Below are positions 10,574 to 63,566 of a stretch of 64,000 nt of DNA, piece after piece. Every line of letters starts with the position of its first letter. Position 1 is the stretch's first letter. This stretch comes from Candidatus Paraprevotella stercoravium (GTDB lineage Bacteria > Bacteroidota > Bacteroidia > Bacteroidales > Bacteroidaceae). Below the pieces are notes generated by a model that did no database searches, had not been told where the DNA came from, and was given only the letters and a program-made list of their open reading frames with translations. The stretch is taken from assembly GCA_944320795.1 (NCBI GenBank), contig CALUIU010000002.1, forward strand, positions 62,001 through 126,000. The letters run 5' to 3'. The position numbers were made by a program, and so were the translations under genes.

Positions 10574-11830
10574 ATGAAAAAACGATCTTACACCCTACTT
10601 TTTCTATTTTCTTTTCTGTGTTCCATACAGGCACAGAACTCTCGCATATATTCCGAACATGTTAAAAGTCTTCAGGTCATCGCCAACGAAGACATACTCC
10701 TTCCGCCCATTGTAAATCTGGGTGGAAACAATGTCATCGACTTTGACTTTGATATGCTCAGTCACGACTATCATCGGCTGATTTACAAAATCGAGCATTG
10801 CAATGCCGACTGGACACCATCAACCGAGATTTTCGAATCGGATTATCTGGCCGGATTCAACGGACAAGTCATAGAAGATGTAGAAAACAGTTTCAACACC
10901 AATCTGCTCTACACACATTATCATGTACGTATTCCCAACGAAAACGTAGCCTTGAAGTTATCAGGTAACTATAAGCTGCATGTATATCTTGACGAGGATG
11001 GCGCTGACCCTGAACGGCCTTTGCTTACAGCCTGTTTTTCAGTCGTAGAACCCGAAGTTGGCATCAGTGTCAGTGTATCTTCAAACACCGACATTGACTT
11101 CAATAAAACACACCAGCAATTGAGTTTTTCCATTAATTATGGAACACTCACAGTAGGTGATCCTATCCGGGAATTGAAAACAGTCATTATGCAGAATCGC
11201 CGCACTGACAACTGGGTCATTAATCCAAAACCGGATATTCAAAAAGTAAATGTCCTGGAATATAAACACAACCGGCAACTGATTTTTGACGCAGGAAATG
11301 AATACCATAAATTTGAAATTTTAGGGTTTAACCGCGCTAATATGAATGTGGATCAAATCAAATGGTTTGATCCCTATTATCACGTTATTCTTAATGAAGA
11401 CCGTCCTTCAAAAAATTACATCTTCGAAACGGATCAAAACGGTGCTTCGGTCATTCGACACGCAGATAATTGGGACAATGAAACCACATCAGAATATGTA
11501 TGGGTTCATTTTACACTAAAAAGTCCGCAACAGACACAGGGAGAGATTTACTTGTCGGGCAACTGGACTTTTAATCAGTTTACCCCGCAATACCGTATGA
11601 ATTACAATCCGGATATTCAATGTTACGAGGCCGCTTTGCTGCTGAAACAAGGATACTATAACTATCAATATCTGTATGTTCCATCGGGTAGTCAGCGGGG
11701 AGAAAGTCTCATTGACGGAAATTACTTCCAGACTGAGAACGAATACATCATACTCGTTTACCATCGTCCGGTAGGTGAACGCTATGACAGACTTGTGGGA
11801 TATCGGAAGATGAACTATCTGGGACAATAA
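10574..11830 (+). CDS. DUF5103 / type IX secretion plug-domain protein
   Basis: A 418-residue exported protein with a signal peptide (MKKRSYTLLFLFSFLCSIQA). It matches the Bacteroidetes family DUF5103, whose N-terminal part is named after the plug protein of the type IX secretion translocon. Recognisable parts are IYKIEHCNADWTPS, FNGQVIEDVENSFNT, TYHVRIPNEN-like TLLYTHYHVRIP, and a C-terminal beta-sandwich with LSGNWTFNQFTPQYRMNY. It may associate with the outer membrane. The family also occurs in Bacteroides species that lack a full type IX system, so the role here is uncertain. It is a single gene with its own promoter. Confidence 0.78.
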   Translation: MKKRSYTLLFLFSFLCSIQAQNSRIYSEHVKSLQVIANEDILLPPIVNLGGNNVIDFDFDMLSHDYHRLIYKIEHCNADWTPSTEIFESDYLAGFNGQVIEDVENSFNTNLLYTHYHVRIPNENVALKLSGNYKLHVYLDEDGADPERPLLTACFSVVEPEVGISVSVSSNTDIDFNKTHQQLSFSINYGTLTVGDPIRELKTVIMQNRRTDNWVINPKPDIQKVNVLEYKHNRQLIFDAGNEYHKFEILGFNRANMNVDQIKWFDPYYHVILNEDRPSKNYIFETDQNGASVIRHADNWDNETTSEYVWVHFTLKSPQQTQGEIYLSGNWTFNQFTPQYRMNYNPDIQCYEAALLLKQGYYNYQYLYVPSGSQRGESLIDGNYFQTENEYIILVYHRPVGERYDRLVGYRKMNYLGQ

Positions 11831-15072: not shown

Positions 15073-15438
15073 AAAAGCAGCCAGACGATAAGCCGGGTTC
15101 TGTTCCTTGAAAATCAAGGCGTCTGTCATTTATCCACGCCTTATGTCACCACAAGGCTCTATCGTTCTACCCTCCGACTCAGACGGGCCGCCTTTCGTTA
15201 GCGCCGGTTTACGCGAACTTTCAACCCCCAGAATGCACAGCACGGACGTCACCGCCCGCCTGGTGAGCTCTTACCTCACCTTCTCACCCTTACCTGCCGA
15301 AGCAGGCGGTTATTTTCTTCTACATGATCTAACCCTCACAGACTACTTCCCGTTAAGAAGTGGGGTGCCCTATGTTGCCCGGACTTTCCTCCCGCCTTTT
15401 TACAAAAGACCAGCGACAGACTGTCCGACTGCTTTTAT
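15073..15438 (-). ncRNA. rnpB: RNase P RNA (class A)
   Basis: The catalytic RNA of RNase P, which removes tRNA 5' leaders. Read on the minus strand, the conserved core near the 5' end is GAGGAAAGTCCGGGC, and the 3' end carries ACAGAACCCGGCTTAT. The two ends pair as helix P1 (AAAGCAGTCGGAC with GTCTGGCTGCTTT). A pyrimidine/purine-rich hairpin (CCGCCTGCTTCGGCAGG) and the GGTAAGGGTG-type segment also fit. The promoter, 5-12 bases upstream, is an exact -7 box. Ends are accurate to a few bases. Any protein reading frame called on the plus strand here is spurious. Confidence 0.95.
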
Positions 15439-18298: not shown

Positions 18299-18340
18299 TC
18301 CCCAATACAGACTTATACATTAGCATTTGGCAAATCAGCA

Positions 18341-18373
18341 AGGTGTACCTGTAAAAGCAGGTACACCTTTTTC
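18341..18373 (+). terminator. Terminator of rpoD
   Basis: An 11-bp stem (AGGTGTACCTG with CAGGTACACCT), a 6-nt loop and a T-tract, about 43 bases past the rpoD stop. It separates rpoD from the next operon. Confidence 0.9.
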
Positions 18374-18441
18374 ATTTTCACACCAATCAGACAAAAACAA
18401 TAAAAAAAGAGTTTTTTGTTGGCTGATGAAAGATTATTCCT

Positions 18442-18449
18442 TATTTTTG
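18442..18449 (+). promoter_or_regulatory. Promoter of the kinase/peptidase/PqqD operon
   Basis: TATTTTTG, an exact -7 match, 20 bases before the ATG at 18470. A TTG at 18419-18421 stands about 20 bases upstream as -33. It is the only clear promoter for the four genes that follow. Confidence 0.65.
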
Positions 18450-18469
18450 TAACGATAAAACTTTAAAAT

Positions 18470-18901
18470 ATGAAACGTTTCAAATTTTCTTTTTTATTAC
18501 TTTTTACCGTGCTTGTTGTCGGCATAAATTCATATGCTAAAGACAAAAACACGACAAAAACCGAAAAAGTATATATGTTCGGCTTCTCTGCATCCTTTAA
18601 TGACTCTCTAGTTTACATTACAGATATACAGGGTGTAGATTCTGTTGAGATCGAGCCAAAAACGGACTTTCTTGTTGGCCGTACAGCTTATGGCAATCAA
18701 TTGCAATTTTATCTGGCAGATTATAAAGAGCGTCCAAACACGACTTGCGTCGTTTTTTTTGACAAGAAAGAAGACAAATTGCGCAAAAAATACAATAAGA
18801 TCTTGAAACGATACAAGAACAGCAAAGAAACGATCCTAAAAAACCTGACACGAGACGAGTTCAGCTTCAAGCGCGAAATCAATAAAGTAATTTCCGAATA
18901 A
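18470..18901 (+). CDS. Small exported protein of unknown function, first gene of the kinase/peptidase/PqqD operon
   Basis: A 143-residue protein I do not recognise. A clear signal peptide (MKRFKFSFLLLFTVLVVGINSYA, cleavage after residue 23) puts the mature part in the periplasm or outside; there is no lipobox. The mature N-terminal half is beta-prone (VYMFGFSASFNDSLVYITD, IQGVDSVEI). The C-terminal 55 residues are very basic and helical (KKEDKLRKKYNKILKRYKNS). It is followed after five bases by the HPr-kinase-like gene and shares its promoter, so it probably belongs to the same function and could be a substrate. That link is inference from position only. Confidence 0.7.
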   Translation: MKRFKFSFLLLFTVLVVGINSYAKDKNTTKTEKVYMFGFSASFNDSLVYITDIQGVDSVEIEPKTDFLVGRTAYGNQLQFYLADYKERPNTTCVVFFDKKEDKLRKKYNKILKRYKNSKETILKNLTRDEFSFKREINKVISE

Positions 18902-18906
18902 TATAC

Positions 18907-19788
18907 ATGAAAACAAAACAATATAAAGTAGCCGGACATCTGTTCCGATTATCCTTTGAAGTGCCGGAACTGATTGAAGACCTGTTACCTTCCTGCTCTC
19001 CTTTCATCTGTGAAACGAGCGATGAAAAAGAGCTTTTTGAGATGTCCGTTACTGAAAATCCATGTACAGAAACCCCACAAGAAGAAATTGGACAGTTTGA
19101 TTGCGGTGGTTGCAACCACGGAGTTTACCTGATGGAAGACGGCGGTTATGAATTTGTCATCAGTAGTGTTTCCAGTGTAAAATGTTGCCTTGTCCGTGTC
19201 AATGCAGACTTCAGCAAAGCGACAGTACACCTGATGACCCCCAAAAAGGAAGACCGGGCATTTGGAACCAACAATGCCCTGATGATTGTCTTTGCTTTTG
19301 CCACATCGGGACATAACACATTACTCATTCATTCGTCCGTCATCCGGAACAATAACAAAGGATACTTGTTTTTAGGGAAAAGCGGTACAGGAAAAAGTAC
19401 ACATACACGTTTGTGGCTCAAACATATTCCCGGATCAGACTTGATGAATGATGATAATCCGGTAATACGTGTTATTGATGGAAAGACTTTTGTTTATGGT
19501 TCCCCATGGAGCGGCAAAACCCCTTGCTATCGTAATGTTGAAGCCGAAGCTGGTGCCTTTGTTCAATTGGAACAGAAAAAGAAAAACGAAATCCGACGTG
19601 AAGATATCCTACACTCCTTCGCTCATATCCTGTCATCTGTATCGGTTATGAAATGGGACAAACGTGTTTACAACGATATTTGCAACACAATCTCCGAAAT
19701 ACTGTCGCACACCCCTGTATATCATTTAGGGTGTCTGCCCGATGAAGAAGCTGCACGCCTCAGCCATCAAACTGTAACCTCGGCATGA
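18907..19788 (+). CDS. HPr-kinase-like ATPase (PqqD-associated type)
   Basis: A 293-residue protein with a P-loop, GKSGTGKST at residues 157-165, and a following acidic motif LMNDDNPVIRV. The arrangement matches the C-terminal kinase domain of HPr kinase/phosphorylase and the related kinases found next to PqqD-like proteins in peptide-modification clusters. The N-terminal half is not the HPr-kinase N domain; it is a beta-rich segment with a Cys pair (FDCGGCNHG). GSPWSGKTPCYRNVEAEAGAFVQLEQ is typical of the associated family. It probably phosphorylates a Ser in a protein or peptide. The stop codon overlaps the next ATG by four bases (ATGA), which implies translational coupling. Confidence 0.78.
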   Translation: MKTKQYKVAGHLFRLSFEVPELIEDLLPSCSPFICETSDEKELFEMSVTENPCTETPQEEIGQFDCGGCNHGVYLMEDGGYEFVISSVSSVKCCLVRVNADFSKATVHLMTPKKEDRAFGTNNALMIVFAFATSGHNTLLIHSSVIRNNNKGYLFLGKSGTGKSTHTRLWLKHIPGSDLMNDDNPVIRVIDGKTFVYGSPWSGKTPCYRNVEAEAGAFVQLEQKKKNEIRREDILHSFAHILSSVSVMKWDKRVYNDICNTISEILSHTPVYHLGCLPDEEAARLSHQTVTSA

Positions 19789-20342
19789 AAAAAAGTATCA
19801 GGAAAAAAATTTTCGGAATTGTATGGAAAGGATTCTCCCCCATACGACGGCTTACCGCTCCTGCTTCTCCGGCATCCCGAACAGAAAATACAACCCGCGT
19901 AGTGATACCCAACGAAATTATTCTCGGACAGGTAAAGGAACTGGTGCGCGAAGGACACACTGTAAAAATCATGGTCAAAGGATATAGCATGCGTCCTTTT
20001 CTGGAACATTGCCGGGATAGTGTGATACTAGGACCTTTCTCGGAACTGAAAGTGGGTGATGTGGCATTGGCCGAAATATTTCCGGGCAAATATGTATTGC
20101 ACCGTATCATTGCACTTGACGGAGATCAGGTAACCCTGATGGGTGACGGTAATCTGAGAGGGAAAGAATACTGCCGGCGCGAGAAAGTGGCTGCCGTGGT
20201 GCGCACATTTATCCGCAACGGAATAGCTACTGATGCCGACAATGAGAAATGGAAACGCTATGCCCGCCTTTGGGGCAAACTGCTCCCTATAAGAAAGTAT
20301 TTATTATGGATCTATAAATTAAATCTTGAACAGAAATCATGA
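19785..20342 (+). CDS. S24/S26 signal-peptidase-like serine peptidase
   Basis: A 185-residue protein of the S24/S26 fold. The catalytic Ser is Ser68 in VKGYSMRPFL, equivalent to box B of signal peptidase I. A His (His106 in YVLHRIIALDGD) replaces the usual Lys, as in the Ser-His type of archaeal and ER signal peptidases. LMGDGN at 118-123 is the matching downstream motif. There is no N-terminal membrane helix, unlike housekeeping signal peptidase, although the last 25 residues are hydrophobic and basic. It may remove a leader from a peptide made by this operon. It overlaps both neighbours by four bases, so the three genes are coupled. Confidence 0.78.
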   Translation: MKKSIRKKIFGIVWKGFSPIRRLTAPASPASRTENTTRVVIPNEIILGQVKELVREGHTVKIMVKGYSMRPFLEHCRDSVILGPFSELKVGDVALAEIFPGKYVLHRIIALDGDQVTLMGDGNLRGKEYCRREKVAAVVRTFIRNGIATDADNEKWKRYARLWGKLLPIRKYLLWIYKLNLEQKS

Positions 20343-20605
20343 AAATAAAAAACGGATTTGACCTGAAGAATGTCTGCAACGAATACGTGGTTGTCGCTTA
20401 CGGAAAGGAAAATATCGACTTCACCAAGATTATCAGCCTCAATGAATCGGCTGCATACTTGTGGAACAAGGTAAAAGATACAGATTTTGATGCGGAACAG
20501 TTGGCACAGTTGCTGCTCGACGAATATGAAGTGGATGCGGAAACGGCTCTGAACGACGCCCGTGACATCATGAAGTCGTGGAACGAAGCTGGACTGACCG
20601 AATAA
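20339..20605 (+). CDS. PqqD-family peptide-recognition protein
   Basis: An 88-residue protein of the PqqD family. This is the winged-helix RiPP recognition element that binds leader peptides and presents them to modifying enzymes. Visible family features are NEYVVVAYGKENIDFTKIISLNESAAYLWNKV (read as beta hairpin then ISLNESAAYLW) and a helical C-terminus (DAETALNDARDIMKSW). It is translationally coupled to the S24/S26 peptidase gene (ATGA overlap) and ends the operon at a strong terminator. No radical SAM enzyme, transglutaminase or asparagine-synthetase homologue lies beside it, so it is not a standard PQQ or lasso-peptide locus. Confidence 0.82.
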   Translation: MKIKNGFDLKNVCNEYVVVAYGKENIDFTKIISLNESAAYLWNKVKDTDFDAEQLAQLLLDEYEVDAETALNDARDIMKSWNEAGLTE

Positions 20606-20630
20606 GCTTCTGTTCTGAACATCAGAAAAC

Positions 20631-20689
20631 AAACATTAAAGGCGCTTTCACTGCTTGCATATACAAGTAAGAAAGCGCCTTTAATGTTT
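20631..20689. terminator. Bidirectional terminator between the PqqD operon and ribE
   Basis: A perfect 19-bp stem (20631-20649 with 20671-20689, AAACATTAAAGGCGCTTTC) enclosing a small inner CTTG/CAAG hairpin. It lies between convergent genes. Confidence 0.92.
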
Positions 20690-62121: not shown

Positions 62122-63468
62122 ATGAATCATAGTTCTGTTTTAAGTTACAAGACCCATATCCGCTCCCTGATTGCTTTAGGATTTCCGATTATCATCGGAC
62201 AGATCGGTACGATTGTACAGGGACTGGCCGATACCATCATGACCGGCCAATACAGTTCACAGGCGCTGGCAGCCGCCGGCTTCGTCAACAACGTGATGAC
62301 CTTGGTGCTGATCTTTGCCATGGGATATTCCTATGGCCTTACGCCCGTTGTAGGTGCTTATCACGCAAGAAAAGAGTACCAGCATATCGGACAGTCACTG
62401 CGTTGCAGTCTTCAGACAAATGCAGTTCTGGCAACAATCATCTTTCTGCTGATGGGCAGTCTGTATTTCTTTCTCGACCGCCTGGGACAACCGGAAGAAT
62501 TATTACCCATCATCCGCCCTTATTATTTAGTCATTCTGCTGTCGCTGCCCTTCCAGATTCTGTTCAACGCCTACAAACAGTTTTTTGACGGAATCGGAAA
62601 AACGCAAATCGCAATGTGGATCATGATCGGAGCAAACATCTTCAACATCATCGGCAACTGGTTTCTGATTTATGGATGGGGGCCTTTCCCGGAACTCGGA
62701 CTGCTCGGTGCCGGTATCTCCACCTGTCTGTCGCGCATCGGTATGTTGCTCTGCATGACCTTTATTTTTTATCGTTCAACATCTTTCCGAATATATCAGG
62801 AAGGCTTCCGTCTCCGAGAAGGAAATAGAGAATTGCGCAAAAAGCTGAATCGCCTGGGACTTCCGATCGGTTTGCAAATGGGCATGGAGTGTGCTTCCTT
62901 CGCGCTTTGCGCCGTTATGCAGGGCTGGATTGGCACCTCAGCGCTGGCCGCCCATCAGATTATGACCAACGTAGCATCGGTATGTTATATGATTTATTAT
63001 GGAATCGGTGCATCTGTAGCCATTCGCATCAGTCACTTTACAGGATTGAAAGATACGGGAAATGTACGTCGCTGCGCCTTTGCCGGTTATCGCATGATTC
63101 TGTTTTGCGGTATTGTCCTGTCAAGTATGATGGTTCTCTGCCACCATCAGATCAGTTCGTTCTTTACGAACGATCCAGCGGTCAGTGCCATTGTCATGAG
63201 TCTTATGGTACCTTTTGTACTCTACCAGTTAGGTGACGGGCTGCAAACAAACTTTGCCAATGCCCTACGTGGTATTGCTGATGTTAAACCGATGATGCGT
63301 TATGCATTTATCAGCTACATTGTCATATCTCTGCCATTAAGTTATTTCCTGGGAATACAATTCGCATGGGGACCGGCAGGTATCTGGATGGCCTTCCCGA
63401 TAGCTCTTTCTGTTGCCGGTATGCTTTTCTATTGGAGGTTCAATAAAAAGATCTCAAAGGGGATATAA
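62122..63468 (+). CDS. MATE-family multidrug efflux transporter
   Basis: A 448-residue inner-membrane transporter with twelve predicted helices, expelling cationic compounds by sodium or proton antiport. The N-terminal half shows ALGFPIIIGQIGTIVQGLADTIMTGQY, and the second half LGLPIGLQMGMECASFALCAVMQGWIGTSALAAHQI, the repeated MATE pattern. The length is typical. It is divergent from the PHP gene. Its stop is followed after six bases by a terminator that also ends the small RNA on the other strand. Confidence 0.93.
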   Translation: MNHSSVLSYKTHIRSLIALGFPIIIGQIGTIVQGLADTIMTGQYSSQALAAAGFVNNVMTLVLIFAMGYSYGLTPVVGAYHARKEYQHIGQSLRCSLQTNAVLATIIFLLMGSLYFFLDRLGQPEELLPIIRPYYLVILLSLPFQILFNAYKQFFDGIGKTQIAMWIMIGANIFNIIGNWFLIYGWGPFPELGLLGAGISTCLSRIGMLLCMTFIFYRSTSFRIYQEGFRLREGNRELRKKLNRLGLPIGLQMGMECASFALCAVMQGWIGTSALAAHQIMTNVASVCYMIYYGIGASVAIRISHFTGLKDTGNVRRCAFAGYRMILFCGIVLSSMMVLCHHQISSFFTNDPAVSAIVMSLMVPFVLYQLGDGLQTNFANALRGIADVKPMMRYAFISYIVISLPLSYFLGIQFAWGPAGIWMAFPIALSVAGMLFYWRFNKKISKGI

Positions 63469-63566
63469 AAAAAGAATCCTACTTGCAATCACTGCAGGTA
63501 GGATTTTTTAGATCTTCGCTAAGATCTCACCTTTGTTAACCTTAAATCTAATACTATGAAAAACAC
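63467..63566 (-). ncRNA. Probable small RNA of about 100 nt
   Basis: A minus-strand transcription unit with no protein. It starts about five bases after an exact -7 box (63571-63578, with TTG at 63598-63600 as -33). The 5' part is single-stranded and pyrimidine/purine-patterned (CATAGTATTAGATTTAAGG). Then come a small hairpin (AGATCTTAGCGAAGATCT at 63511-63528) and an intrinsic terminator (AATCCTACCTGCA with TGCAAGTAGGATT, 63474-63504), ending in a run of T. An unstructured 5' seed followed by two hairpins is typical of trans-acting bacterial small RNAs. The target is unknown. Confidence 0.55.
63474..63512. terminator. Bidirectional terminator of the MATE gene and the small RNA
   Basis: A 13-bp stem with one G-T pair (AATCCTACTTGCA with TGCAGGTAGGATT) and a 5-nt loop. 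T-tracts lie on both strands. Confidence 0.85.

Follow-up and report, generated by a model that had tools for sequence, protein, structure and literature searches.

Linear polyphosphorylated peptides (LPPs) are a family of ribosomally synthesised and post-translationally modified peptides (RiPPs) that was described in 2026 for the lppAKBSDN genes of Paenibacillus alginolyticus (PMC13381572). LPP clusters encode a SipW-like peptidase, a RiPP recognition element (RRE), an HprK-like kinase, a nucleoside triphosphate (NTP) transferase, an exporter and precursors with a YxxP leader. In that study, binding of YxxP by the RRE was shown experimentally in Bacillota, and in the crystal structure of LppB with its leader residues N33, Y60 and D70 hold the motif. 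The kinase LppK phosphorylates S3 of the core, adding multiple phosphates, and the SpI-like LppS (Ser/His/Asp) cut in vitro only together with the RRE; the SipW-like peptidase was poor on unphosphorylated precursor. The LPP consensus is YxxPxVLxHQxIxFETxxS, in which the phosphorylated Ser at Tyr+18 is core residue 3 and cleavage takes place three residues before it. LPPs were called restricted to Bacillota in the discussion of the same paper (PMC13381572). Here we describe an operon at approximately 18,442-20,689 of a 64,000-nt stretch (the window) of Candidatus Paraprevotella stercoravium (GCA_944320795.1, CALUIU010000002.1, positions 62,001-126,000), encoding an exported protein of 143 residues, a kinase, a peptidase and a PqqD-like RRE. 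The last three genes probably constitute a trans-acting maturation module of the LPP type for RiPP precursors that are dispersed through the genome, and the 143-residue protein is probably not their substrate.

The window operon shares with LPP clusters (PMC13381572) a SipW-like serine peptidase, a discrete RRE and a kinase of the HprK fold with an intact P-loop. The RRE has the N/Y/D residues for the leader motif, and nine peptides encoded in the genome have the YxxP leader and a conserved Ser early in the core. The system differs from LPP in that it belongs to Bacteroidota instead of Bacillota, that the nine precursors are dispersed whereas an LPP cluster holds one to three, that the Ser is mostly found at Tyr+19 and not at Tyr+18, and that most precursor genes follow genes for large proteins with an end like those of type IX secretion system (T9SS) cargo. 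A first-pass annotation of this DNA had stated that the operon matches no standard class, which is out of date, because the LPP family has the same enzyme logic, NTP transferase and exporter aside. We do not file the operon as a member of that family, since neither the NTP transferase and exporter nor an in-cluster precursor is found in the window. On genomic grounds it would be an LPP-like, trans-acting variant whose operon contains neither NTP transferase nor exporter.

By homology and from the peptide pattern, the three steps known from LPP may be proposed for the nine dispersed precursors. The PqqD-like RRE would grip the YxxP of the leader of small precursors encoded elsewhere in the genome. 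The HprK-fold kinase would add one or more phosphates to the Ser at Tyr+19, at about the third position of the core, and the SipW-like Ser-His peptidase, aided by the RRE, would remove the leader, probably between Tyr+16 and Tyr+17. The product is predicted to be a linear phosphopeptide of roughly 25-45 residues that is acidic and in many cases ends in Trp. The core idea of the first-pass annotation, a system that recognises, phosphorylates and cleaves a peptide with PqqD as leader-binding RRE, is supported by the motifs, the co-occurrence and the parallel with LPP described here.

The PqqD-like protein matched the PqqD family of Pfam (PF05402, E 9.6e-16). Matches of the other two enzymes to Pfam-type models were weak, both for the kinase (HprK_rel_A, 1.2e-5; Hpr_kinase_C, 0.094), which has the HprK/PEPCK fold, and for the peptidase (signal peptidase I, 9.8e-5; Peptidase_S24, 0.0025). 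An HprK-like kinase is also paired with a PqqD-like protein in the SynChlorMet ScmC-ScmD cassettes. However, the window kinase stayed far below the NCBIfam cut-offs for HprK-related kinase A (TIGR04352, 24.6 against 200 bits) and ScmC (14.4 against 125 bits). Alignments were made from 30 fetched loci and contained 27 kinases, near-duplicates having been left out, 24 peptidases and 25 PqqD-like proteins. The kinase motifs SGTGKSTH, NDDNP and PWSGKT were invariant in all 27 sequences, Ser68 and His106 of the peptidase in all 24, and N35, Y63 and D73 of the PqqD-like protein in all 25. The exception was the relative L099/L111, which is outside the kinase alignment and has STQ in place of STH in its P-loop. 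In a profile alignment to 9x8z, N35, Y63 and D73 align with N33, Y60 and D70 of LppB, a numbering that is our own count on an alignment with a weak overall match (E 0.21).

Kinase, S26-like peptidase and PqqD-like RRE are a conserved triad. Two sets of loci from 30 and 80 relatives were compared, which have some contigs in common and in which some of the misses are contig ends. The peptidase was found downstream of the kinase in 30/30 and 78/80 relatives, the PqqD gene followed in order in 30/30 and 76/80, and the exported-protein gene was upstream of the triad in 29/30 and 74/80. In L099, the peptidase and PqqD genes are located about 4 kb off, on the opposite strand. A family-wide survey of 201 genomes profiled the kinase, the RRE, the exported protein and the peptides, the peptidase not being among them. 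The kinase was present in 164 genomes, mostly as a single copy, and the RRE in 167; both occurred together in 164 genomes, the kinase never alone and the RRE without the kinase in three. The window genome has one kinase match and one RRE match. In a phylum-wide sample, the kinase was found at E 1e-10 in 5 of 296 genomes, the window's own genome included. The four-gene order that the first-pass annotation wanted sought in relatives has been kept. Scattering of the three enzymes in relatives, and a dead P-loop or Ser68/His106, which it had named as findings that would speak against its proposal, were largely not seen, apart from the exceptions given.

Short open reading frames (ORFs) with the common start MKK.Y..P were seen beside kinase/RRE cassettes in other genomes. 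A first profile of 12 such peptides, each encoded near a kinase or RRE gene of another genome, revealed nine scattered relatives in the window genome, five of them at E < 1e-3. With an enlarged profile of 32 peptides, seven of which came from the window genome (so that seven of the nine are themselves seeds), nine copies were found, with E values between 3e-12 and 3e-9. A tenth match (E 0.42) contained an internal stop and was dropped. The nine peptides are 50-62 residues long and carry the YxxP leader, and their genes are scattered through the genome. Of the two substrates considered in the first-pass annotation, the evidence points to a peptide encoded elsewhere.

To describe the motifs, 42 distinct peptides from 81 loci were used, after duplicates had been merged and loci without a passing ORF, as well as one match without YxxP, had been left out. 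Tyr+16 was L, F, I or M in all 42 peptides, Tyr+17 was Ala or Cys in 33 and a Ser was present exactly at Tyr+19 in 31. The rest of the peptide is acidic (21% D/E, 4.5% K/R). A Trp occurred within the last eight residues of 29 peptides, at a density of 36/336 residues versus 10/804 in the preceding core. The column figures are descriptive and not an independent test, since the profile favours conserved columns; the C-terminal Trp is outside the profile. Five YxxP peptide genes are found in an island of glycan-active proteins (sialidase-, fucosidase- and GH16-like proteins and lectins) covered by L210 and L211 (G000:C14:1-36000).

The first-pass annotation had also suggested a search for a small gene that co-occurs with the operon; the YxxP peptide genes co-occur with the kinase. 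Scored with the enlarged profile at E 0.001, peptides were present in 135/201 family genomes, namely in 130 of the 164 kinase-positive and 5 of the 37 kinase-negative genomes (Fisher 7e-14). When permuted within genera, 122.3 genomes with both were expected against the 130 observed (p 5e-5). The first profile gave 111/164 and 5/37, respectively. Peptides were found in 110 of the 138 genomes with a single kinase match and in all 12 genomes of the own genus, ten of which have a single kinase match.

The genomic position of the peptide genes differs from that in LPP clusters. In the window genome, eight of the nine begin 12-45 nt past a gene for a large protein on the same strand, and the ninth precedes a gene for a hemin-type TonB receptor. 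By eye, a signal-peptide-like start is present in seven of the eight large proteins and absent from the eighth, a frame of 437 residues. Seven of the eight were scanned for domains and showed ricin-type lectin (two proteins, one below cut-off), GH16, PCMD/calycin, Ig-like and CHB_HEX domains; one protein was without a family. A C-terminal region is common to all eight. In Prevotella intermedia, short type IX secretion signals are characterised by T/GI, Y..xG, GxY and a basic end (PMC11969387). The proteins encoded in front of the peptides resemble this short C-terminal domain (CTD) cargo in showing the same elements at their ends, and the distance between T/GI and the C-terminus was 42-49 residues in the four proteins measured. 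They differ in that T/GI is absent from two of the six ends checked, and the likeness concerns the neighbours of the peptides, outside the window operon.

Both by eye and by pattern, the short-CTD motifs are present in most of the large proteins. A strict C-terminal pattern was matched in 7/9 cases of the own genome (7/8 large proteins). Overall it was matched by 16 of 32 upstream frames, corresponding to 16 of 42 peptides; for ten of the 42, the fetched stretch did not include a frame upstream. The background was 8 of 1,091 ORFs (window plus the L031-L110 loci; p 1e-21, with paralogues that are not independent). T9SS models remained below their cut-offs on the large proteins (TIGR04183, best 17.2 against 23 bits; PF18962, 14.6 against 27 bits), and six of the eight ends gave no TIGR04183 match at E 1. 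A gene for a T9SS plug protein was matched in the window (Table), so that T9SS is represented by at least one gene in this genome. T9SS function has been shown experimentally in Paraprevotella clara, a species for which a porU mutant and cargo deletions exist (PMC9477747).

Related cassettes were compared at 21 loci, consisting of 20 chosen stretches, of which 18 belong to genomes of the family and two to a single genome from a different family, and Bacteroides sp. 51. In 8/21, the kinase, peptidase, RRE, NTP_transf_5 and an ABC exporter were all present in the fetched stretch; the exporter query would match any ABC exporter, and in L164 some 9 kb separate the RRE and the kinase. This five-gene set in Bacteroidota is the core set of LPP clusters. 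Second kinase/RRE copies were found in two settings: with NTP_transf_5 among exopolysaccharide genes (by eye), and in sets with an ABC exporter and an S26-like peptidase.

Several observations weigh against a trans-acting maturation module of this kind. No precursor peptide gene is located within the 64-kb window. The operon has no NTP transferase or MsbA-like exporter (exporters elsewhere in the genome were not searched), and the two NTP_transf_5 genes of the window genome are outside the operon, near or among polysaccharide genes (by eye). The weak match of the PqqD-like protein to LppB (E 0.21) belongs here, as do the two candidates, D121 and E128, for the third catalytic acid of the peptidase. 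The peptidase sequence is divided between two frames in L014/L034, which seem to be one contig, and in L097; these are metagenome-assembled relatives, in which the gene is either broken or wrongly assembled. Furthermore, no peptide was detected in 34/164 kinase-positive genomes, and 5/37 kinase-negative genomes do have one. Peptides were found in 0/3 kinase-positive versus 1/1 kinase-negative genomes of genus g18 and in 5/10 versus 1/1 of genus g22, and genus g20 showed little association (1/9 versus 0/3). The profile may miss peptides of other lineages, because its seeds are linked to kinase or RRE genes or come from the window genome. A third factor, e.g. type IX secretion, could drive the co-occurrence.

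This last point leads to an alternative that we regard as unlikely, in which the triad modifies a target connected with surface polysaccharide and has nothing to do with the YxxP peptides, these co-occurring with it by shared ancestry or through type IX secretion. It is in line with the exopolysaccharide setting of several second kinase copies, which have NTP_transf_5 and RRE beside them, and with the position of the NTP_transf_5 genes in the window genome. It also accords with the lack of the peptide-kinase association in three of nine mixed genera. Nevertheless, the association survives permutation within genera, and the residues with which the RRE would grip the leader are invariant. Within the fetched stretches, a YxxP peptide was present in 10/20 second-copy loci versus 3/80 loci of the triad search and 0/20 loci without triad, a comparison that is partly circular because seeds came from the second-copy loci.

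The first-pass annotation had offered the exported 143-residue protein as the other substrate, whose leader would be bound by PqqD and which would be phosphorylated and cut before or during export. Its gene adjoins the triad upstream in nearly all relatives compared, and it is present in all 164 kinase-positive genomes. However, the family, which matched no model in the library scans, was found in 195/201 genomes (132/132 good genomes), including 31 of the 37 without the kinase, and is therefore not a dedicated substrate. From these 31 genomes, 20 triad-less loci were fetched: a C11 (clostripain) peptidase gene adjoins the exported-protein gene in 14 of them, and an rpoD-like gene immediately precedes it in 10. 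Likewise, in four genomes with the triad elsewhere, the exported protein and C11 are still paired, in three of them behind an rpoD-like gene. Since the pair stays together without the triad or with the triad elsewhere, it seems to be a module distinct from the triad, the two having a common operon. The C11 gene, which is absent from the first-pass annotation, lies between exported protein and kinase in 10/30 and 7/80 triad loci; in the window genome the sole C11 match is on another contig. Judged by eye, the exported protein begins with a normal signal peptide that lacks a conserved YxxP, while a cytoplasmic location is suggested for the peptidase and the RRE (likewise by eye and without a predictor). 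We give this substrate very little chance and regard the protein as a near-core neighbour that is probably outside peptide maturation.

It is equally improbable that the triad is a regulatory module, in which the kinase and the S24/S26-like peptidase control a host protein in the manner of HPr kinase or LexA-type peptidases. The HprK/PEPCK fold and the widespread, mostly single-copy occurrence in the family would suit such a role, but an RRE, a leader binder, accompanies the kinase in all 164 kinase-positive genomes, no DNA-binding family was among the library matches of the operon proteins, and the kinase scored 13.5 bits with the HPr kinase/phosphorylase model (TIGR00679), which has a cut-off of 240. 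A lasso-type pathway with an unlinked cyclase is extremely improbable: a Y/WxxP leader motif, a discrete RRE and an HprK-like kinase are also features of phosphorylated lasso peptides such as paeninodin and pseudomycoidin (PMC8498205, PMC12710340), the kinases of which act on a C-terminal Ser (PMC8498205), but the operon, to which the search for a cyclase was confined, has no macrolactam cyclase or B2 cysteine peptidase, and its peptidase is LPP-like.

If the triad does mature the YxxP peptides, a likely substrate and function are provided for a gene set of which the kinase occurs in 164/201 sampled genomes of a dominant gut family, and the RiPP logic described in 2026 for Bacillota (PMC13381572) would extend to Bacteroidota. 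It would depart from the usual rule that RiPP enzymes lie beside their precursors; as these are unlinked here, none of the nine would be picked up by cluster-based mining. Bacillus-type bacteria are known to have a comparable set of enzymes, but the arrangement seen here and its connection with surface proteins seem to be novel. We tentatively put forward, as a possibility and no more, that the single-copy triad matures a repertoire of linear phosphopeptides, mostly co-encoded with T9SS surface cargo, as companions of that cargo. After their presumed export, the peptides might be co-displayed, bind the cargo or contribute to the linkage that joins it to surface polysaccharide. The RiPP pathway would then be a general envelope-building device in Prevotella-like bacteria and not an antibiotic pathway. 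That precursor genes are linked to genes for T9SS-like cargo was unexpected, and the link is directly testable in P. clara with the mutants named above (PMC9477747).

The four genes of the operon are real and as described in the first-pass annotation, with all ORFs on the plus strand (Table). The exported-protein gene and the kinase gene are separated by 5 nt, and ATGA overlaps connect the kinase gene with the peptidase gene and the latter with the PqqD gene. Terminators at both ends were also confirmed: none of 200 shuffles folded as well as the upstream hairpin (-21.3 kcal/mol, z -8.1) or the end hairpin (-33.5 kcal/mol, z -10.0). The gene upstream of the operon was named rpoD-like by eye, as was the convergent, riboflavin-synthase-like gene beside the end terminator. 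The operon is preceded by a promoter-like pair that includes a TAnnTTTG box, which we take to be the Bacteroidetes -7 element; this box can only be called suggestive, because 25 such boxes occur on the plus strand of the window.

Table. Features of the operon, the window and related Bacteroidota loci (positions are those of the window)
Feature	Position	Strand	Evidence or remark
Type IX secretion system plug protein gene	10574-11830	+	NF052315, E 2e-137; ~7 kb from triad
Intrinsic terminator behind upstream rpoD-like sigma gene	18340-18369	+	Scan and fold, z -8.1
Promoter-like pair, Bacteroidetes type: TTTG (18415-18418) and TATTTTTG (18442-18449)	18415-18449	+	Pattern count
Exported protein, 143 residues, unknown family	18470-18901	+	
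HprK/PEPCK-fold kinase (LppK-like), 293 residues	18907-19788	+	
P-loop GKSGTGKSTH, kinase residues 157-166	19375-19404	+	S159-H166 invariant in 27/27 aligned
S26/SipW-like Ser-His peptidase (LppS-like), 185 residues, ATGA overlap with kinase	19785-20342	+	Family search, alignment
Ser68 codon of peptidase, predicted catalytic	19986-19988	+	Invariant in 24/24 aligned
His106 codon of peptidase, predicted catalytic	20100-20102	+	Invariant in 24/24 aligned
Discrete RRE, PqqD family (LppB-like), 88 residues, ATGA overlap with peptidase	20339-20605	+	Pfam, E 9.6e-16
Terminator hairpin closing the operon	20631-20689	+	Fold, z -10.0
All five LPP gene types in Bacteroidota: L105, L155, L156, L159, L161-L164			
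RRE, NTP_transf_5 and HprK-like kinase among exopolysaccharide genes: L145, L146, L148, L157			No S26-like peptidase in fetched stretch

Two RNA genes were recognised elsewhere in the window with Rfam, both on the minus strand: the RNase P RNA at 15073-15432 and the Bacteroidetes small RNA FopS at 63464-63566.

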